From Bacteroidota bacterium (lineage in GTDB: Bacteria > Bacteroidota > Bacteroidia > AKYH767-A > 2013-40CM-41-45), in the NCBI GenBank assembly GCA_003389385.1, contig QQVM01000018.1:1-41044 (forward strand): a DNA stretch of 41,044 bases, written 5' to 3'. The position numbers and the translations under genes are program-made. Position 1 is the first letter of the stretch. The number at the start of each line of letters is the position of its first letter. Of this stretch, positions 15,775-38,547 are shown one piece after another. Under the pieces are notes generated by a model. That model was not told the origin of the DNA and ran no database searches. It saw nothing but the letters and a program-made list of their open reading frames with translations.

Positions 15775-17007
15775 TTATTCCTTGTCGAACCTCCAGTCAA
15801 GTTGCGGCCTGATCACTCCAGGTATATGCTGACGGAAGTCAGATTTTCTTTTCTCGATATTTTCAATTACTTCAAAATTCAATGCGTCCTGAACGTAAAA
15901 ATGTACCGTTACATTCGCAAGCGTCGACAAAGCTATGCCAACATAATAAATTCCCTGATTGAGCAGGTTCGGGGGAATCCACATGGCAGTTTTATAAATT
16001 CCGGTTTCCGAGGTGTTCAAGTCGAATTCAGGATGACTTACAAAAACATATTCTCCCTTGTTTGTAAAGATATGAATATTGGGTACGAGTTTCTGTCCGC
16101 CTTTCTTTACTTTAAACCTGAATTCAACCCCGATGCTCTCGTCCAACTCAATATGATCAATCGTATTCAGTGATTCATCCATAAGTCTGGCATCCATAAG
16201 TTGTGCGATTTCGTCTCCGGTGGGAGGCACATTATCTGCCCAATTTCTGTAGCATGAATTCTCGGACTCTCCCTTGAGGTATTGGTCAACGATTGATTCT
16301 GTCTCTCCAAATCCGGCAATTTCACCGTTTCTTATCAACACCGATTTATGACACAAGGTCGTGACTGCGTTCATATTATGACTCACAAAGATGACTGTCC
16401 TTCCACTATGGGCGACTTCGTCCATCTTGCCCATGCATTTCCTTTGAAACTCTGCGTCGCCTACGGCAAGGACTTCATCAATTATTAAAATCTCCGGTTC
16501 CAGAAATGCTGCAACAGCAAATGCCAGACGTAACTGCATCCCGCTTGAGAAATGCTTGAGCGGTGTGTCGAGAAATCTCTCCACTCCGGCAAACTCCACG
16601 ATTTGATTGAACTTCGCCAGAATCTCCCTACGCTTCATTCCTAATATGGAACCATTCAGAAATATATTTTCTCTTCCAGTAAGTTCAGGATGGAAACCAG
16701 TGCCTACTTCAAGCAGACTTGCGACTCTTCCTCTGCAGATGATTTTTCCTTCGGAAGGAGGAGTGATCCTTGAAAGTATTTTCAATAAAGTTGATTTACC
16801 TGCACCGTTTTTGCCTATGATGCCAATGGTCTCTCCGGCCATTACATCGAAAGTCACATTTTTTAAGGCCCAAAATTCTTCGGAAGAACTGGTCTTGTGC
16901 AAAGTGAGTATGCTCAGAATTTTATCACGGAAGGTCAGGTATGGCTGCAACTCATGCCTGATCTTAAATTTTTTGGATATGTTCCTGATTTCTAAAATTG
17001 GTCTCAT
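15775..17007 (-). CDS. wzt: ABC transporter ATPase for polysaccharide export with C-terminal glycan-binding domain
   Basis: A 410-residue Wzt/TagH-type ATPase. The Walker A loop GKNGAGKST is near 73-81, the ABC signature reads HFSSGMQLRLAFA, and Walker B is EILIIDEVLAVGDAEF. From about residue 255 the protein extends into a beta-rich region typical of the Wzt C-terminal carbohydrate-binding domain. In O9a-type systems that domain reads the modified non-reducing end of the finished chain. Here that could couple export to the methylations encoded nearby, which is inference. The start overlaps the permease stop by one nucleotide, and rfbF follows after 9 nt. Confidence 0.93.
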   Translation of the reverse strand: MRPILEIRNISKKFKIRHELQPYLTFRDKILSILTLHKTSSSEEFWALKNVTFDVMAGETIGIIGKNGAGKSTLLKILSRITPPSEGKIICRGRVASLLEVGTGFHPELTGRENIFLNGSILGMKRREILAKFNQIVEFAGVERFLDTPLKHFSSGMQLRLAFAVAAFLEPEILIIDEVLAVGDAEFQRKCMGKMDEVAHSGRTVIFVSHNMNAVTTLCHKSVLIRNGEIAGFGETESIVDQYLKGESENSCYRNWADNVPPTGDEIAQLMDARLMDESLNTIDHIELDESIGVEFRFKVKKGGQKLVPNIHIFTNKGEYVFVSHPEFDLNTSETGIYKTAMWIPPNLLNQGIYYVGIALSTLANVTVHFYVQDALNFEVIENIEKRKSDFRQHIPGVIRPQLDWRFDKE

Positions 17008-17873
17008 CAGGCTAGATCTGCAAAATAATATTCAGTTTTTCTGAAGTACAGCATTCCTGCAATCAGCAGAACCACTGAAAATAACAAGCCTCTTGTCATT
17101 AACATGAAATCCATCTCTGCGCCACTCACTGCCGCCCTGAAAATGTCAAGAGCTGTGGCTAGCGGATTCAGCAGAAGGATGTCGAGGAGTATCCCTTCAG
17201 GGATAATGCTTACGGGATAAATCACAGGCGTGAGGAAAAGTAGAATTTGTATGAAAAAAGGTATCACATATCTGAAATCCCTGTACTTGACATTGAGCGC
17301 AGCCAGCAAACTTCCAAGACCAAAGGTGGTGAATAGCACTATGCAAAGACTTATTGGCAAAACTATTATCATCGAGAGCCATGATATTTCCATTGGATAA
17401 ATAAAGGTCAGAATAAGAAAAAGTACAAAAGAAATGCTGAAGTCTACAAGCGTGGATAGTACAGATGATATGGGAATGATTATTCTCGGAAAGTAAATCT
17501 TCTTGATAATATTGGCATTACTTACCATGCTGTTTCCGGCATTAGCCAAACCACTTGCAAATACATTCCAGAATATAAGGCCGGAAAATACAAATGCAGG
17601 GTAGGGCATTGACAGTTCCTTCTGTCCAATGATTCTCGAAAAAAACAAGGTGAAGATTAGCATCAGCAAAACAGGCTGAAGTATTGCCCAACTCGCACCA
17701 AGAACGGTCTGCTTGTATTTGATCTTAATATCCCGCCAGACGAAAAAATAAGTCAACTCTCTGAACAACCACAATTCTGAAAAGTTCAAATGAATCCGCG
17801 AACGTGGTTTTATTTCGTATTCCATAGATTTACGACCTTCAACAAAGCTAAGCTTTAAATCAGATTTACCCAA
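17007..17873 (-). CDS. wzm: ABC transporter permease for polysaccharide export
   Basis: A 288-residue ABC-2 type permease of the Wzm/TagG family. After a cytoplasmic segment with RDIKIKYKQTVLGASWAILQP (the conserved amphipathic stretch) come about six hydrophobic segments, the first LLMLIFTLFFSRIIG and the last near LLFSVVLLIAGMLYF. With Wzt it moves an undecaprenol-linked glycan across the inner membrane. The frame opens at 17873; a second Met at residue 17 (ending 17825, MEYEIKPRSRIHL) is an equally reasonable start because the first 16 residues are not family-like. It lies 46 nt after the PKD protein gene and is coupled to wzt. Confidence 0.92.
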   Translation of the reverse strand: MGKSDLKLSFVEGRKSMEYEIKPRSRIHLNFSELWLFRELTYFFVWRDIKIKYKQTVLGASWAILQPVLLMLIFTLFFSRIIGQKELSMPYPAFVFSGLIFWNVFASGLANAGNSMVSNANIIKKIYFPRIIIPISSVLSTLVDFSISFVLFLILTFIYPMEISWLSMIIVLPISLCIVLFTTFGLGSLLAALNVKYRDFRYVIPFFIQILLFLTPVIYPVSIIPEGILLDILLLNPLATALDIFRAAVSGAEMDFMLMTRGLLFSVVLLIAGMLYFRKTEYYFADLA

Positions 17874-17919: not shown

Positions 17920-20900
17920 TTATCGTGGAATGCTGCTTTTGACAATTTGTCTGAGCGATTTGTCATCACGAAAATTTGTTCTGATATAGTACAAGCCTTC
18001 ACTCAACTCTTCTATGTTCAGTTTGATTTCCAGCAATCCTTTTGAAGTTGTGCCTTTAAATAATTCCTTTACCAGTTTCCCGGTCTGATCCAGGAGGTCA
18101 ACATTCAGAAAATCCTGGAATGGAATGATTAACCGAAGTGTCAGTTGATCTGTGAAGGGATTCGGATAAGGGTTGATTGTCACCAGTCCACTGCTTCTGC
18201 TGAAACATTTTTCATTGTTTTCAGGGACATCATCTGTCTCACCGTTCGGATCACTCGCTTTTATACAGTAATAAGAAAACCTGGAACCGGGAGAAACAAA
18301 AAACGATGCATGAAACGTATACCACTGGATTCCGCCTGTGCCATTGGGCAGGAGTGATGTGAGTTTTTCTCGTACGATTGATCCGTCCTCAAGTCTTGCC
18401 TCCAGATTCACTTCTGATATTTCTCTTGTGCCGAGATTTGCGATCCTTGTGACTACATGAAAATAGTTTCCGCTTAAATATGAGGAATCACCCGTAATGG
18501 CGATGTCAAGCACAGGACGTATAACGTAAATTTTCTTTGTGCTTGTGTCTCTGCAGCCTTGCGGACTGGTTACAATCTGTGTAATGGTAAACAGGCCGGT
18601 ATCCTGATACATGTACAGTGGAGCTTGATCTGTGCTGCCTCCTGTACCGTCGCCAAAGTCCCAAACGTATGTGTTTCCATTGATGGATAAATCAGTGAAC
18701 TGTACATCCAATGGAGGGCTTCCAAATTGCGGATTGAAAGTGAAACTTGAAGTTGGTGGGGGATAGGATCTGATGGTGCCGTTATAATCGTCCTCACATC
18801 CTGCATCTGACCTGACAAAAAGATTAATTGCATACAATCCTGTATCAGGAAAGACAGTGACTGGATTTACAATAGTATCAATGAGGATATTATTTACTCG
18901 CCATTCGTAATAAACGATATTCCCGTTGCTGACTGTGCTGTTGTCTGTAAACTGAAATGATGTGTTTACGCATGCAGGATCCTGTACAAAAGATGCTACC
19001 GGCAATGGATTCACAAATAACAACACGGAATCTGAACTTCTGCATCCTCCGAAAGCAGTGACGGTGAGTTTAGCCTGATAAAACCCTGCGTTAGGGTAAA
19101 TATGAGCAGGCTGTTTTTGAAAACTGAAAGTGCCATCTCCAAAATCCCAGAAATATGTGCTGTCGGAAGCAGAACCTGCATTGATGAATGAAACACTGTC
19201 CCCGGCGCAAGCTGCATTGTAGCTGAATGTCACAGGTGAGCTAATGCGTACCTGAACTGTTCTTGTTATAGTATCTCTGCAACCGTAAGTGCTGGTAGAG
19301 ATTAAACTTACAAGATAAGTGCCGGGCAAGCTGAATGTATGTAATGGATCTGTAAGGATGCTGCTATTGTTTGCTCCGCTTGCAGGATCTCCAAAATTCC
19401 AGTTGTAAGCAATAATTGCTGATATGGAATCTGCCGTGCTCAGGTTTTCAAATTCCGTATCCTGTGAAGAACAAGCATTATAAAATGCAAAATTGGATAC
19501 AGGAGGCTGATAGACCGGAACATAATTAGTATCAGAATCTGTACAACCATTGACTGTAATCACGGAAAGAATCACAGGAAAACTGCCGGCATTTGCGAAT
19601 GTGTGCGATGGATGCTGCAATGTAGTTGAATCATTGACACCGAATCTCCAACTGTAAGCTTGTATTGTGTCTCCCGGTGGTGTACTTGACAAATCGGTGA
19701 ATTGGTTAGATTGTCCGAGGCAGGCATCTGTAAAAGTAAATGCCGCAACTGGACTTCCTACCACGTTGAAACTTTGCTGGACAGGAGCACTGGGGCAACT
19801 TGTAGGGGAGTAGGCTATCAGCGTAACTGTCTTGTTGCCTGGAGTGCTGAAACGATGTGTAGGATTGAATAATTCGGATGAATTTCCGTCACCGAAATCC
19901 CAACTCCATGCCGAAATTGTATCTCCGCTCACTGTGGATAGATCCTGGAAGTAAACATCGTTGTTTACACAAGCAACTGAAGGATTGAATGTGAATGATG
20001 CGCTTGGAACATTGTTGATCTTTACATCCTGCATTAATGTATCAATACACCCGTTAGCCGCAGTCACAATCAACTGCACAGAATAGGTAGCAACTCCACC
20101 TGAGTATGTGTGATTCGGATGCTGATTCATGCTGTTACCTGTATCACCAAAGTCCCACAGATAGTCTGTAATAGTTGTGTTTACAACGGTGCTGAGATCT
20201 GTAAACTGAACAGATTGTCCTACGCAGGTATTGCTGGCCATAAAAATTGCCTCAGGCCTGTCATTGATTACAATGTTCTGACTGCTTGTATCACTGCAAG
20301 CCATGTCCGAAATTACAATCTGGCTCACTGTGAATGCGCCTCCTGCCGGATATAAATAAACCGGATTTTGAAGTGTTGATGTATCTCCATTTCCAAAATC
20401 CCAGTACCAACTGCTGATATTTCCTGAACTGATTGATGATAAATCATTGAAGGGCATATCAGTCGATGAACACCCTGGAACTGTAGAAAATAATGATGTG
20501 GGGAGTGGGGAGATGATCACACTTGAAGTAATGCTGTCTGAACAACCGGCTGCTGAAAGAACAAAGAGTTGTACGGAATAAGTTCCGGTGTCTGCATAAG
20601 TATGAACTGGATTTTGATCTGTCGAAATTCCCGTGTCACCAAAATCCCAGTTCCAGCTTGCAATACTTCCTGATCCAACCAATGTAGTATCCATGAAAGC
20701 CGTTTGATCTCCCAGACAATTTCCGCTGAAAGAAAAACCGGCTACAGGATTTGAAACTACCGTTATCAGTTGTGAGCTCCTGTCTGTTAACCCTGTAGCT
20801 GATGTTGCCTCCAGAGATACTTTGTATATTCCTTCCAGCGAGAATGAAACGCCGTTTGGCAAAGAATCTGAACTCGTTGGCTGGCTCGCCTGACAACTGT

Positions 20901-21990
20901 TCCGAAAGTTTATTTTTTTCATCATGTTGTTGGTGTCGAACATGACAAATGCGAACCAGCTGCTTTGCTCTTTGTAAAGGTTTAAACACATTGGATTACC
21001 TGCTCCCATAGGAACATTTCCCTGTAAAATCGGACTGCTTCCGGGTAAACTCTGGCCGAGATTCTGAATCATCATAAAAGAGGATGAAAAGCCTACACTT
21101 ATCAAATACCAGTTGTCATTCTCATTAACAATACTGATGCCTATTGGGTTTGGAACTCCTCCATGGAGAAATCGTTCAGAAACAGGCGCATTCAACAAGC
21201 TGTTTCCAAAATTCAATTCTCTGATTTCGCTGTTGGAAAAGCAACTCACATATGCCATCCAGGTTCCGCAATCATTCGCTAAGGCTACATCAATTACTCC
21301 GGTACCGCTTACGTTATATGTGCCGGCTAACACCGGAGTGTTGTTGATGGAGTTGCCAAAGTTGTAAACACTTACTGCATTGTTGTTAAAATTTGCGACT
21401 GCCACTATGATATTGCCGGAATCATCAATCACAAGATCAATTCCTCTGGGAAGATTGAGCCCGGTAGAAGTTATCAGTGATCCGGATGTAGGTGCATTTC
21501 CCAAGCCATTCGCGAATTCAATTTTGCTCATTGTATTGGTAAAAATCCCCAATACTATGGCGTACCAGACGTTGCCTTCCTTGTGAAAGGCTATTCCGTT
21601 CGGACCACTTGTTTGTCCAAAGATGTTTCCCAAGTCGTCGATTTGCACAGGTGGATTGTCGAAACTATTTCCGAAATAATAGCGGATAATTTTATCATCC
21701 GTCCTGCTGCAGCCAAAAGCATAATGATCACTTCCGTCAACTACAGGCGTAATGGCCGATGGCGTTGCAACGTAACCTGGAACTTCATTTGTATCTGTAA
21801 CCAAAGAATCGAAATCACCTGCGCAAAAATCCCATGTGTAAGAAATGGCTCCGGTACTGAAATTGCTGAAATTGATGTTCTGTCCGGCACAATTGGATGC
21901 AGGAACAGAAAAAATCGAATTTGGACATTGAGACTTTGCTGAGACAATATATCCGCAAGTCAAAATGAACAGTATGGTTCTTTTAATCAT
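17920..21990 (-). CDS. Giant secreted PKD-repeat protein with an inserted six-bladed propeller and T9SS sorting domain
   Basis: A 1356-residue exported protein. A signal peptide occupies residues 1-20. A first PKD-type fold begins at about 23 (FSNFSTGAISYTWDF, 41-55) but is interrupted. Six repeats of 50-53 residues follow, each ending in a variant of NFGNSxxNxPV (near 106, 159, 211, 261, 311, 361), which suggests a six-bladed beta-propeller. The missing half of the PKD fold then resumes at 378-412 (VSFSLEGIYKVSLEA). About nine further PKD domains follow, most with WDFGD or a variant (WRFG, WNFG). A CARDB-like stretch near 1185-1260 precedes a C-terminal T9SS type A sorting domain beginning NPYPNPF. 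The protein should be exported by T9SS and anchored at or released from the cell surface. Its gene has its own promoter candidate and precedes wzm by 46 nt. Confidence 0.9.
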   Translation of the reverse strand: MIKRTILFILTCGYIVSAKSQCPNSIFSVPASNCAGQNINFSNFSTGAISYTWDFCAGDFDSLVTDTNEVPGYVATPSAITPVVDGSDHYAFGCSRTDDKIIRYYFGNSFDNPPVQIDDLGNIFGQTSGPNGIAFHKEGNVWYAIVLGIFTNTMSKIEFANGLGNAPTSGSLITSTGLNLPRGIDLVIDDSGNIIVAVANFNNNAVSVYNFGNSINNTPVLAGTYNVSGTGVIDVALANDCGTWMAYVSCFSNSEIRELNFGNSLLNAPVSERFLHGGVPNPIGISIVNENDNWYLISVGFSSSFMMIQNLGQSLPGSSPILQGNVPMGAGNPMCLNLYKEQSSWFAFVMFDTNNMMKKINFRNSCQASQPTSSDSLPNGVSFSLEGIYKVSLEATSATGLTDRSSQLITVVSNPVAGFSFSGNCLGDQTAFMDTTLVGSGSIASWNWDFGDTGISTDQNPVHTYADTGTYSVQLFVLSAAGCSDSITSSVIISPLPTSLFSTVPGCSSTDMPFNDLSSISSGNISSWYWDFGNGDTSTLQNPVYLYPAGGAFTVSQIVISDMACSDTSSQNIVINDRPEAIFMASNTCVGQSVQFTDLSTVVNTTITDYLWDFGDTGNSMNQHPNHTYSGGVATYSVQLIVTAANGCIDTLMQDVKINNVPSASFTFNPSVACVNNDVYFQDLSTVSGDTISAWSWDFGDGNSSELFNPTHRFSTPGNKTVTLIAYSPTSCPSAPVQQSFNVVGSPVAAFTFTDACLGQSNQFTDLSSTPPGDTIQAYSWRFGVNDSTTLQHPSHTFANAGSFPVILSVITVNGCTDSDTNYVPVYQPPVSNFAFYNACSSQDTEFENLSTADSISAIIAYNWNFGDPASGANNSSILTDPLHTFSLPGTYLVSLISTSTYGCRDTITRTVQVRISSPVTFSYNAACAGDSVSFINAGSASDSTYFWDFGDGTFSFQKQPAHIYPNAGFYQAKLTVTAFGGCRSSDSVLLFVNPLPVASFVQDPACVNTSFQFTDNSTVSNGNIVYYEWRVNNILIDTIVNPVTVFPDTGLYAINLFVRSDAGCEDDYNGTIRSYPPPTSSFTFNPQFGSPPLDVQFTDLSINGNTYVWDFGDGTGGSTDQAPLYMYQDTGLFTITQIVTSPQGCRDTSTKKIYVIRPVLDIAITGDSSYLSGNYFHVVTRIANLGTREISEVNLEARLEDGSIVREKLTSLLPNGTGGIQWYTFHASFFVSPGSRFSYYCIKASDPNGETDDVPENNEKCFSRSSGLVTINPYPNPFTDQLTLRLIIPFQDFLNVDLLDQTGKLVKELFKGTTSKGLLEIKLNIEELSEGLYYIRTNFRDDKSLRQIVKSSIPR

Positions 21991-22121: not shown

Positions 22122-23060
22122 TCAGTACGTGACACTCACTTCATTCAGAAAGTGCTCATACGTTTTCTTCAAGCCATTCCGTAATTCGGTCTCAGGTTTC
22201 CATCCCATGCCGGTGATTTTCGTGATATCCATGAGCTTACGGTATGTGCCGTCTGGTTTTGTAGTGTTGAATGATATTTTTCCTTTGAATCCTGTGATCT
22301 CACTAATTAGCTTTGCGAGATCAGCTATGCTGATGTCTTTTCCGTAACCCACATTCACAAATTCTCTTTCATTGTAATATAACATCAGATGAAGGCAAGC
22401 TTTTGCAAGATCATCTACATACAGAAATTCTCTTAAGGGTTTTCCGCTGCCCCAGACTTCCACTTCTTCAGCACCATTTATACGGGCTTCGTGAAACTTC
22501 CTGATCAAGGCAGGAAGCACGTGAGAATTGTTCAGATCATAATTGTCGTTCGGTCCGTAAAGATTTGTAGGCATGGCTGAAATGAAATTCGCCCCGAACT
22601 GATCCCTGAAACTTTCGCAAAGCTTGATGCCGGCAATTTTGGCTATGGCATACGGTTCGTTGGTTTTCTCCAAAGGTCCTGTCAGCAAATATGACTCCTT
22701 TAAAGGCTGTGGAGCATCCTTCGGATAAATGCACGATGAACCGAGGAAAAGCAACTTCTTGGTTCCATGTTGATATGCGGAATGAATTACATTCAGCTCA
22801 ATGGCCAGATTGTCAAAAAGAAATTCTGCTCTGTAAATATTGTTTGCCTGTATGCCTCCCACCTTAGCAGCTGCCAGAAATACATAATCGGGCTTCTGTA
22901 CTCTGAAAAAATTTTCCACAGCAGCCTGATTTCTCAAATCCAGTTCTTTCGAAGTGGCCAGAATGAGGTTATTGTAACCTTCTGACTGCAGAAGTCTGAG
23001 TATGGCTGAACCTACCATCCCTCTGTGTCCTGCCACATAAATCCTGTCAGACTTATTCAT
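22122..23060 (-). CDS. fcl: GDP-L-fucose synthase
   Basis: A 312-residue SDR that epimerises and reduces GDP-4-keto-6-deoxy-D-mannose to GDP-L-fucose with NADPH. From the chosen start it shows [13 protein letters not shown] (8-20) with glycines 11, 14 and 17, FLGSSCIYP (105-113) with Cys110, and Y137/K141 in [19 protein letters not shown] holds the conserved His. The frame is open to 23126, but the first 22 residues would lie inside gmd and precede the Rossmann strand. I therefore take the ATG at 23058-23060, which overlaps the gmd stop by 8 nt. Gmd upstream supplies the substrate, so the pair is a complete GDP-fucose pathway from GDP-mannose. Confidence 0.95.
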
Positions 23061-24165
23061 GATAATTAAAAATCTTGTGTCCGCCTTCTTTGAGATATTT
23101 ATCCTTTCTGAATAATTCCAGATCACATGCCATCATTTCTTTCACCAGCGTCCTGAGATCATGCTTGGGTGTCCAACCCAGATCCTTCTTCGCCTTGCTT
23201 GCGTCACCGATCAGCAAATCCACTTCAGCAGGTCTGAAATACATAGGATCCACAGACATGACAAGCTTTCCTGTTTCCAGTTGGTAATCCTTGTTGGAGC
23301 ATTTCTTTACGTAGGCTTTCTCTTCGCTTCCTTCTCCTTTGAATTCGATTTCCACTCCGGCCTCCAGGAAAGACATTACAAGAAAATCCCTTACTGAAGT
23401 GGTAACTCCGGTGGCAATGACATAATCTTCCGGCTTGTCCTGTTGCAGCATCAGCCACATAGCTTCCACATAATCTTTCGCATGTCCCCAGTCACGCTTG
23501 GCATCAAGGTTTCCTAAAAAAACCTGATCCTGCATGCCCAGAACTATCCTTGACACGGCCCGTGTGATCTTCCTTGAAACAAATGTTTCTCCCCTTATCG
23601 GTGATTCATGATTAAAGAGAATTCCGTTTACTGCAAACATGTTGTAAGCTTCTCTGTAATTCACAATGATCCAGTAAGCATAAAGTTTGGCTACTGCGTA
23701 TGGTGATCTGGGGTAAAAAGGAGTCTTTTCTGATTGCGGTGTTTCCTGAACAAGTCCATACAGTTCAGATGATGATGCCTGGTAAATCTTCGTTCGCTCA
23801 GTCATACCGAGAAGACGAACCGCTTCAAGAATTCTCAGAGCGCCTATTCCATCCGCATTTGCAGTGTATTCCGGAGTTTCAAAACTCACCTTCACATGGG
23901 ACATTGCTCCCAGGTTGTATATTTCATCAGGCTGAACTTCCTGAATGATTCTGATCAGGTTGGTGCTGTCTGTCAGATCTCCGTAATGCAGGGTGAAGTT
24001 GATATTTTTTTCGTGAGGATCAAGGTATAAATGGTCTATCCTGTCTGTGTTAAAAAGAGAACTTCTCCTTTTAATTCCGTGAACATGATATCCTTTTTTA
24101 AGAAGGAACTCAGCAAGATATGCTCCGTCTTGTCCTGTAATTCCTGTGATAAGAGCAACTTTCAT
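23053..24165 (-). CDS. gmd: GDP-mannose 4,6-dehydratase
   Basis: A 370-residue SDR catalysing the first step from GDP-mannose to GDP-L-fucose. It has the Rossmann loop [15 protein letters not shown] (6-20), the NADP-binding Arg-rich [15 protein letters not shown] (31-45), QASSSELYG (129-137) and Y156/K160 in SPYAVAK. The C-terminal region has [21 protein letters not shown], diagnostic for Gmd. Length matches bacterial Gmd (about 370). It heads a two-gene unit with fcl and has a good -7 element (TATCTTTG) 47 nt upstream. The product could also feed GDP-rhamnose or perosamine pathways, but the adjacent fcl makes fucose most likely. Confidence 0.96.
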
Positions 24166-37617: not shown

Positions 37618-38547
37618 TTAAGGTTTGAGTTTGTTCAATTTTACACTTCCTAACGTACGGGATTTTTTGTCTGTTAATTCGATGAAGTATGTTCCGGTTT
37701 CAAGATGTTCAATATTAATTGATTTATTTGATTCAAATCTGGAATAAAGGATGATCCTTCCCAAAGCATCATATAACTTATAGAAATGTATTTGCTCCAC
37801 GCCGGAGCCAACAACTCGTATTGAGCCTGAAGCAGGATTTGGAAAACAAAAGAACATACCTTCATTTTCCTTTTTCTGATTGAATGTGGATGAAATCAGC
37901 GTGCAAGGACCAGGACTATTGATTGGATACAATACATCATTGTCTATAGAAAAGCAGCTTAAACTGCCATTGTTATCAAGCATTGCGCTAAGCCCCTCCA
38001 GAAGTCCGTATTCACACCCGATTCCTTCTATGATTGTTCCATTCCAGAAATTATAAGGAGCAGTACCGTGACTCATGTAATGCCATCTTTTTCTATAGTT
38101 GCTTCCAATCAGTATTGAATCAATGTTCGATATGATGGCAGTATTATATTTTGCGACGAAATCCAGATAACCCTTAACTGTATCTCCGATGTTTAAGGAA
38201 AAATCGTACAGGAGCATTTCATACAAGCTGTCCTTTGGTACAAAAAAAACCTGTTGAGTTACAAGGTTGTTTCGATAAGCTCCAAGATAACCGCTTTCAG
38301 GAAGAATAGGGGCAGCATGACAGTCAAAACTACCAGTTCGCACCACTTTCTGATATATGCTAGCATTAATATTGGTATCTCCGGTAACCTGGTATTGGTA
38401 CTCATCAAACAAATTTGATTGTAAACATCCTGATGTGCCCCAGCTTATTCTCCATACAACATTCGAATCGGGTAGGGGATGATAAGCCTGACAGTATCCA
38501 GCTTGTGCAATTATTAATAAGATAATCTGAATGTGGAAGATTCTCAT
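37618..38547 (-). CDS. Secreted protein of unknown function with T9SS sorting domain
   Basis: A 309-residue exported protein. The signal peptide is MRIFHIQIILLIIAQAGYCQA with cleavage after about residue 19. The middle (25-220) has no domain I recognise; it is rich in Tyr, Asn and Gly and carries several cysteines. The C-terminal 75 residues form a T9SS type A sorting domain: FCFPNPASGSIRVVG, YKLYDALGRIILYS and LETGTYFIELTD. It should be secreted across the outer membrane by T9SS and retained or released. It lies 29 nt downstream of the DUF4239 gene, so the two are probably co-transcribed. Substrate or partner unknown. Confidence 0.87.
   Translation of the reverse strand: MRIFHIQIILLIIAQAGYCQAYHPLPDSNVVWRISWGTSGCLQSNLFDEYQYQVTGDTNINASIYQKVVRTGSFDCHAAPILPESGYLGAYRNNLVTQQVFFVPKDSLYEMLLYDFSLNIGDTVKGYLDFVAKYNTAIISNIDSILIGSNYRKRWHYMSHGTAPYNFWNGTIIEGIGCEYGLLEGLSAMLDNNGSLSCFSIDNDVLYPINSPGPCTLISSTFNQKKENEGMFFCFPNPASGSIRVVGSGVEQIHFYKLYDALGRIILYSRFESNKSINIEHLETGTYFIELTDKKSRTLGSVKLNKLKP

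Follow-up and report, generated by a model that had tools for sequence, protein, structure and literature searches.

The window analysed here, a stretch of 41,044 nucleotides from a member of the Bacteroidota (contig QQVM01000018.1), carries on its reverse strand a long gene lying directly between an fcl-like gene and a wzm-like gene. A Pfam scan took in 25 ORFs of the window, and the genes around this position are listed below; the name fcl is our assumption, taken from family knowledge and the place of the gene beside gmd.

15775..17007, reverse strand, wzt-like ABC ATPase with a Wzt_C domain (PF00005 and PF14524)
17007..17873, reverse strand, wzm-like ABC-2 membrane protein, the next gene downstream (PF01061)
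17920..21990, reverse strand, the whole gene under study, 1356 amino acids: signal peptide, split PKD domain with a predicted nested propeller, nine PKD domains and a T9SS type A tail
22122..23126, reverse strand, fcl-like GDP-fucose synthetase (NAD epimerase family), the next gene upstream (PF01370)
23053..24165, reverse strand, gmd, GDP-mannose 4,6-dehydratase (PF16363, 499.7 bits)

The 1356 residue product was divided into the following parts.

21931..21990, reverse strand, signal peptide, residues 1-20, assigned by eye, with a predicted mature start at Gln21-Cys22
21814..21930, reverse strand, first half of the split PKD, residues 21-59 (strands A, B and C, ending ...YTWDFCAGD), from profile and model
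20905..21801, reverse strand, predicted six-bladed beta-propeller, residues 64-362, from model, fold comparison and repeat analysis
20755..20904, reverse strand, second half of the split PKD, residues 363-412 (strands D, E, F and G), from profile and model
18517..20751, reverse strand, stalk of nine contiguous PKD domains, residues 414-1158, from Pfam and a PKD profile
18169..18516, reverse strand, residues 1159-1274, with no listed Pfam match
17947..18168, reverse strand, T9SS type A sorting tail, residues 1275-1348 (PF18962, 35.8 bits; TIGR04183, 27.0 and 30.5 bits, cut-off 23)

Gln occupied the column of Gln21 in 27 of 29 aligned sequences. The original prediction, made from the letters of the window, had placed a WDF motif in the first PKD domain and about nine PKD domains in the stalk; the ORF translation reads W53-D54-F55 at that position, and the stalk consists of nine complete repeats.

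The first PKD domain is interrupted. Residues 22-60 alone scored 18.6 bits against Pfam PKD, covering profile positions 2-40, and the second half alone scored 12.5 bits against PKD_4, covering positions 56-81. When the two halves were joined, they scored 32.4 bits against PF00801 over positions 3-77 of 80 and passed the cut-off of 23.5. Unlike other PKD domains (PF00801/PF18911), and unlike the nine contiguous PKDs of the stalk, the first domain has ∼300 residues between strands C and D. The comparison was extended to 44 modules from the window and related loci; sequences that were identical, truncated (the second module of L076), broken in frame (L085) or nearly duplicate (L058) were not included. 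Against a profile of the protein's own nine PKDs, with any segment lacking a reported match set to -5 bits, the joined halves outscored either half in 40 of the 44 modules and outscored the N-terminal half joined to a shuffled C-terminal half in 42; in 39 modules they aligned as a single domain over the greater part of the profile.

AlphaFold2 models were generated for the head (pLDDT 94, pTM 0.91) and for the head together with the next PKD (pLDDT 92.6, pTM 0.85), using input alignments of 21 rows and 15 rows (the window and related loci) rather than the 29-row alignment. In the model, the strands of the split PKD follow one another as they do in the intact PKD after it, the insert falling in the C-D loop; its strands A and B are shorter than in that neighbour, at only two residues each. 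The PKD fold had been predicted to resume at residue 378; a matching second half is present, but it starts earlier, at about residue 363-366.

Four cysteines of the head are concerned in two putative disulfides.

21823..21825, reverse strand, Cys56, directly before the insert, candidate partner of Cys366
20893..20895, reverse strand, Cys366, directly after the insert, candidate partner of Cys56
21925..21927, reverse strand, Cys22, second residue after the presumed signal peptide, candidate partner of Cys241
21268..21270, reverse strand, Cys241, in blade 4, candidate partner of Cys22

Cys56 and Cys366 were both present in 40 of the 44 modules and both missing from the other four, none having one only (Fisher p 7e-6). 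Cys22 and Cys241 occurred together in 28 modules, singly in one and not at all in 15 (Fisher p 7e-11). From this co-variation we infer disulfides Cys56-Cys366 and Cys22-Cys241. A third disulfide, from the invariant Cys34, was considered and set aside: cysteines anywhere beyond the junction are found chiefly in modules without Cys22 (9/15, against 4/29 of those with Cys22, p 0.004), and the pattern was not clean enough to assign a pair.

The complementary profile halves, the matching strand series and the co-varying Cys56 and Cys366 all favour the packing of both halves into one sandwich, as had been proposed. The propeller is, on the evidence of profiles and models, very probably nested inside the first PKD domain. 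It is very improbable that the two PKD halves are degenerate caps around an ordinary propeller, arranged in tandem rather than as one folded domain. Such an arrangement would fit the short strands A and B of the model and the fact that the fold comparison, described below, lies outside the PKD part; it sits poorly with the three lines of evidence just given and with the pTM of the head model.

Within the insert, the first strands of successive blades start at residues 77, 130, 181, 232, 282 and 333 in the secondary structure of the AlphaFold2 model. The resulting spacings of 53, 51, 51, 50 and 51 agree with the six repeats of 50-53 residues originally described. The five complete repeats resemble one another far above chance, with a mean pairwise score of 37.2 against a mean of -7.7 (sd 3.1, maximum 1.5) for 500 shuffles. 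Each repeat had also been said to end in an NFGNSxxNxPV-like strand; by eye the FGNSxxNxPV-like motif stands out in blades 1, 3 and 4, is degenerate in blades 2 and 5 and has been lost from blade 6, and it occupies strand C and the loop after strand C. Closure of the repeats into a ring, on which the earlier reading depended, was supported by alignment of nearly the whole of the designed six-bladed Pizza6 with model region 43-341 (247/251 residues, 2.0 A, Z 30.1) and by the strand order of the model, in which strand 44-50 is left as the fourth strand of the last blade and provides velcro closure. The model strand order and the Pizza6 match together describe a closed ring of six four-stranded blades, and the blade count is taken from these two sources. 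The top rank in Foldseek was held by the LGI1 EPTP propellers, which are seven-bladed.

The fold comparison covered essentially model residues 40-342; propeller structures fill the match list, with no PKD structure among the matches listed. The head shares its fold and its six four-stranded blades with NHL-type propellers (Pizza6, the PknD extracellular domain and TRIM NHL, Z about 27-30), and differs from them in having blades of ∼51 residues, in being nested rather than terminal and in lacking a family match above cut-off. Within residues 64-362 no match to a Pfam-A or NCBIfam family was above the cut-off, and NHL (PF01436, cut-off 20) gave 10.0 bits with the window protein and 10.8 bits with the propeller alone. 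Weak matches were found in relatives, to NHL in 2/29 (best E 0.0026) and to Lactonase in 2/29 (best E 0.11). When the single protein was searched against the sequences of solved structures, no match was credible as a relative (best E 0.07); with a profile, every match below E 0.05 lay in the second half of the split PKD and came from collagenase, protease or PKD-domain entries.

DFPase, gluconolactonase and lactonase structures were among the fold matches, at Z about 27, and these, with the polysaccharide-locus setting, are what would be expected if the head were a hydrolase or lyase with a six-bladed, NHL/SMP-30-like fold, held on a stalk and trimming exported polysaccharide. We consider this improbable. 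A shared fold is no proof of function, and column conservation across the 44 modules shows no strongly conserved acidic or histidine set in the propeller, although a conserved Asn could serve. Among the polar propeller columns that reach 50%, N, S, T, R, K and Y predominate, and D is the commonest residue only at propeller columns 85, 105, 260 and 290, at 0.52-0.66. The head would instead bind a ligand without catalysis, because the columns with the highest conservation (F, G, P, W, C and N) appear to be structural.

The tail of the protein and those of its relatives indicate export by the T9SS. At E<=0.01, 37 of 41 tails matched TIGR04183 (type A) and five matched TIGR04131 (type B), some matching both. 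The genome encodes a PorU sortase (1361 bits, over cut-off) and at least 150 type A tails. The C-terminus would be anchored to LPS by the PorU sortase, so that the N-terminal head would point outward. Both ends of the propeller chain would be threaded through one sandwich and stapled by Cys56-Cys366, and a second disulfide would join the mature N-terminus (Cys22) to blade 4 (Cys241); threading and disulfides together would hold the propeller rigid on the tip with no loose N-terminus. As a whole, the protein is best explained, with some confidence, as a stalk exported by the T9SS and anchored at the surface, with a six-bladed propeller, nested in the C-D loop of the first PKD, as its distal head; this stalked head probably binds a ligand.

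Homologues at E<=0.001 were found in at least 32 of 395 genomes of the class and at least eight of 11 genomes of the family, the source genome included; these counts are lower bounds, up to five candidates per genome having been scored in the class search and up to four in another. The nested PKD-propeller-PKD unit is a conserved family, and it is sometimes duplicated within one protein, two modules being present in L083, L076 and G380/L059. Named records supplied 19 loci, four of which were copies of loci already in the set; loci L060 and L066-L069 gave no match and enter no count. Mean column identity was 0.39 in the propeller, 0.50 in the first PKD half and 0.37 in the second. No relative was found among 62 pattern matches in viral contigs. 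Neither this conservation nor the linkage to O-polysaccharide genes figured in the original prediction.

The order fcl - propeller gene - wzm - wzt was found in the window, L037, L038, L039, L041 and Rhodocytophaga aerolata (L073). A wzm or wzt gene (>=30% identity, >=50% coverage) lay within 6 kb of the propeller gene in 15 of 44 distinct loci, a count that excludes the copies L058, L070, L071, L075 and L078 as well as wzt matches with 26% identity (L054 and L079) and a match at a distance of 6.8 kb (L079). The remaining 29 loci have neither gene within 6 kb in the stretch at hand, and this number is an upper bound because many stretches extend less than 6 kb on one side and three (L065, L074 and L076) end at the gene. 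A constant position in O-antigen clusters was thereby ruled out, and the wzm/wzt link clearly does not hold across the family. PF01061 (ABC2_membrane) occurs in all 31 whole genomes, in one to eight copies each, and is too common to serve as background; Wzt_C was therefore used, and lay within 6 kb of the propeller gene in 10 of the 31 genomes, which contain 28 Wzt_C places in total. The exporter does not require the propeller protein, since a Wzt_C gene is present in two of three same-family genomes without a listed long module match (one of these, G398, has a match to model positions 310-391).

Because a good part of the genes stand in O-polysaccharide loci beside wzm/wzt, the likeliest ligand in this linked subset would, as a tentative suggestion, be O-polysaccharide of the cell itself or a glycan resembling A-LPS. 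A rival reading, itself less likely than not, is an outward adhesin, whose nested propeller would bind a ligand from outside (other cells, glycans of plants or algae, or a matrix protein), O-polysaccharide loci merely collecting surface genes. A PKD-repeat stalk with a T9SS tail is a usual plan of an adhesin, the 29 loci with no wzm/wzt nearby in the stretch at hand are readily accommodated, and the propeller is more variable than the first PKD half, though not than the second. The repeated gene order is left unexplained by an adhesin role itself.

Binding of the cell's own polysaccharide would make the head work like PorZ of Porphyromonas gingivalis, a T9SS propeller protein which binds A-LPS (PMC8545088). 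PorZ has two seven-bladed propellers, one nested in the other (G29-L34 and Y335-T679), and its CTD is not cleaved (PMC8545088, PMC5121618). As described in passages of these papers, PorZ resembles the window protein as a T9SS-exported propeller protein with a CTD and a nested propeller, A-LPS binding being a proposed parallel; it differs in its two seven-bladed propellers and uncleaved CTD, and no PKD stalk is mentioned there. In an NCBIfam scan up to E 1, the whole window protein gave no match to the PorZ model NF052228.

Among the Foldseek matches were a PREPL chain and an apPEP chain. In prolyl oligopeptidases and PREPL a whole propeller is likewise nested within another domain, the host being an alpha/beta hydrolase, the propeller seven-bladed and the protein an enzyme. 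The integrin beta chain, an animal protein, carries an I-like head domain of alpha/beta fold nested in an Ig-like hybrid domain at the end of a stalk, and archaeal surface-layer proteins combine propeller and PKD domains in one protein, in tandem, and are not known to nest them. Searches of the open-licence PMC literature yielded no account of a propeller set inside a PKD or Ig-like domain.

Taken together, the PKD-propeller-PKD heads could represent a so far unnamed Bacteroidota family in which the subset between fcl and wzm-wzt is a stalked lectin for the O-polysaccharide of the neighbouring ABC transporter; this full combination we regard as rather unlikely. If true, it would link T9SS protein secretion to the glycan that anchors the secreted protein. 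The repeated order with O-polysaccharide export genes suggests a way into the relation between T9SS surface proteins and the polysaccharide of the same cell. The head itself would be a natural discontinuous display device, a propeller in an Ig-like sandwich, conserved across tens of diverged proteins whose cysteines co-vary where insert and host domain meet, and such a head is missed by domain libraries, as the lack of any family above cut-off in the propeller region demonstrates.

The minus-strand open reading frame at 17920-21990 encodes a protein of 1356 residues, whose signal peptide, judged by eye, ends before Gln21-Cys22. Pfam placed nine PKD stretches and a Por_Secre_tail (1275-1348) on this protein, and NCBIfam model TIGR04183 agreed on the tail (27.0 bits, cut-off 23); no Pfam family scored above cut-off on the propeller part. 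The PKD repeats are contiguous, nine of them occupying residues 414-1158, which bears out the stalk of about nine PKD domains in the original prediction.

The same prediction held that a further PKD fold breaks off ahead of the propeller and resumes past it. Residues 22-60 alone matched positions 2-40 of the Pfam PKD profile (18.6 bits), while the post-propeller segment alone matched positions 56-81 of PKD_4 at 12.5 bits, level with InlK_D3 at 13.3 bits and short of all cut-offs. Joined, the two halves scored 32.4 bits against Pfam PKD over positions 3-77 of 80, exceeding the cut-off of 23.5. This splice test was extended to 44 modules (first PKD half, inserted propeller, second PKD half) with a profile of the protein's own nine PKDs. 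Mean scores were 21.8 bits for the joined halves, 13.1 and 9.8 for each half on its own, and 12.4 when a shuffled second half followed the first; the joined score exceeded both halves in 40/44 modules and the shuffled control in 42/44, and 39/44 joined modules matched as a single domain covering at least positions 15-62 of the 82. A family profile repeatedly matched halves of ordinary PKDs in the stalks of relatives at its model positions ∼2-45 and ∼350-392.

A second AlphaFold model (residues 22-497, 15 sequences, pLDDT 92.6, pTM 0.85) extended over the following PKD, which served as internal control, and the strands of both domains are listed here.

Strands of the intact and split PKD domains (model numbering, starting at residue 22)
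Intact PKD: 398-401, 408-413, 422-428, 434-435, 441-443, 448-458, 463-473
Split PKD: 6-7, 21-22, 29-33, insert, 351-352, 360/362, 366-375, 381-391

Both domains show the same strand series, the first two strands of the split PKD being shorter than those of the intact one. In the model the insert sits between PKD strands C and D, the strand letters being our assignment. The joined score, the 44-module test and the matching strands support the interrupted and resumed PKD fold.

The reading of the six repeats as a propeller was also supported. The mean pairwise alignment score of the five complete repeats was 37.2, against a maximum of 1.5 in 500 shuffles. AlphaFold2 (residues 22-412, 21 sequences, mean pLDDT 94.0, pTM 0.91) gave six blades, whose starts fall at residues 77, 130, 181, 232, 282 and 333; the last of them would be completed by the remaining strand at model 44-50. 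Against the PDB, Foldseek gave 686 matches with E ≤ 0.001, and its top rows include chains of LGI1 EPTP, Rrp9 and Drp35, which are all propellers, that of LGI1 EPTP being seven-bladed. VIA-align ranked designed six-bladed Pizza6 structures highest (Z 30.1, 2.0 Å, 247/251 residues, model 43-341, the propeller region), followed by NHL domains, PknD, lactonases and DFPase (Z about 27-28.6).

Cys56, which directly precedes the insert, and a Cys no more than 4 residues from 366, directly after it, were both present in 40/44 modules and both absent from 4/44 (Fisher p 7e-6), while Cys22 and Cys241 occurred together in 28 of 44 aligned modules and were jointly missing from 15, with one mismatch (p 7e-11); neither value takes account of shared ancestry. 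From this co-occurrence we infer two disulfides: Cys56-Cys366 would staple the entry of the insert to its exit, and Cys22-Cys241 would link blade 4 with the N-terminus of the mature protein. Cys34 was found in 44/44 modules, without an assured partner.

The propeller, the PKD domain and the stalked T9SS surface protein are each known, and the protein described here is a stalked T9SS surface protein that is unusual for its discontinuous head. A whole propeller in the PKD C-D loop is named neither in Pfam-A nor in NCBIfam, and no description of one was found in searches of the open-licence PMC literature.

At E ≤ 0.001 the propeller query matched 32/395 genomes of the class and 8/11 of the family, own genome included, where it found one place. 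A 29-row profile (E ≤ 1e-5) matched 14/395 genomes of a phylum draw, with 4 candidates scored per genome; among these candidates, 8 of the 14 genomes had a module-length match and the others a PKD half only. A scan of named genomes yielded 19 loci, including Rhodocytophaga aerolata and Marivirga aurantiaca, 4/19 being contigs already in the locus set. Two modules occur in single proteins at L083, L076 (the second broken off at the contig end) and G380/L059, so duplication involves the entire nested unit. In L046:8394-12344 (a 1317-aa frame) the module starts near residue 290, behind an N-terminal region that is LamG-like by eye, so the nested head can occur inside other proteins. The module gene of L085:7881-10516 is apparently broken, leaving one open frame of 281 residues and another of 581. 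The contig L074 (WAPZ01000727.1, 5288 bases), titled Candidatus Heimdallarchaeota archaeon, also carries a module with PKDs; its short length and Bacteroidota-type protein point to misbinning. In a same-family genome otherwise free of module matches, G398:C5:14097-14360 matched model positions 310-391 (last blade and second PKD half), possibly a diverged or partial module. In a same-order genome, G393:C69:80823-80942 gave a PKD-half match inside an open frame listed at 24595 aa, a possible giant surface protein.

Among 41 C-termini scanned (E ≤ 0.01), T9SS type A tails were found in 37/41 and type B in 5/41. The T9SS export route is a heavy investment of the window's own genome, which encodes PorU; at least 150 type A tail matches were counted in its 3.36 Mb (150 of 252 candidates scored). 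A further type A tail protein (309 aa, 37618-38547, minus strand, Por_Secre_tail 40.7 bits) lies in the window.

The propeller gene lies within one long surface-polysaccharide locus (1874-31073), in the order Poly_export, GNVR/AAA, Glycos_transf_4, gmd, fcl, propeller gene, wzm, wzt, nucleotide-sugar genes, glycosyltransferases and methyltransferases. The locus also encodes two RmlC-like epimerases, two Methyltransf_14 proteins, a rhamnosyl O-methyltransferase and an asparagine synthase. Alongside its ABC-type exporter, the cluster contains a Poly_export/GNVR pair. The order fcl, propeller gene, wzm, wzt is found again in L037, L038, L039, L041 (with a 956-base gap ahead of wzm) and R. aerolata (L073). 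L042 and L063 have wzm-wzt immediately after the propeller gene and L087 has wzt alone there; in L072 the pair is divergent, 0.4 kb away. Counting the window, 15/44 distinct loci have wzm or wzt no more than 6 kb from the module gene. Across 31 whole genomes Wzt_C occurs in 28 places in total and is missing from 11/31; comparing these places with gene positions, it lies within 6 kb of a module gene in 10/31, and chance is an unlikely cause of the proximity in this subset. Seven of the 15 linked loci belong to the window's own family, and therefore represent fewer events than loci. Evidence against the link comes from the 29/44 loci without wzm or wzt within 6 kb in the sequence covered, which for many was less than 6 kb on one side, and from the presence of Wzt_C in 2/3 same-family genomes for which no long module match was listed.

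Computation supports the export tail, stalk, nested head and conserved seam of this protein. It would be anchored C-terminally to LPS by PorU, with the head (residues 21-412) pointing outward from the cell and the propeller ring binding a ligand. Binding is favoured over catalysis because the conserved columns of the modules are mostly structural-looking. PorZ consists of two propellers and a CTD, and its ligand is the phosphorylated branched mannan of A-LPS (PMC8545088); one of its propellers is inserted within the other (PMC5121618). PorZ is a precedent for binding of own polysaccharide, a resemblance in working and not in membership. For the subset in polysaccharide loci, the most economical ligand would be the cell's own O-polysaccharide.
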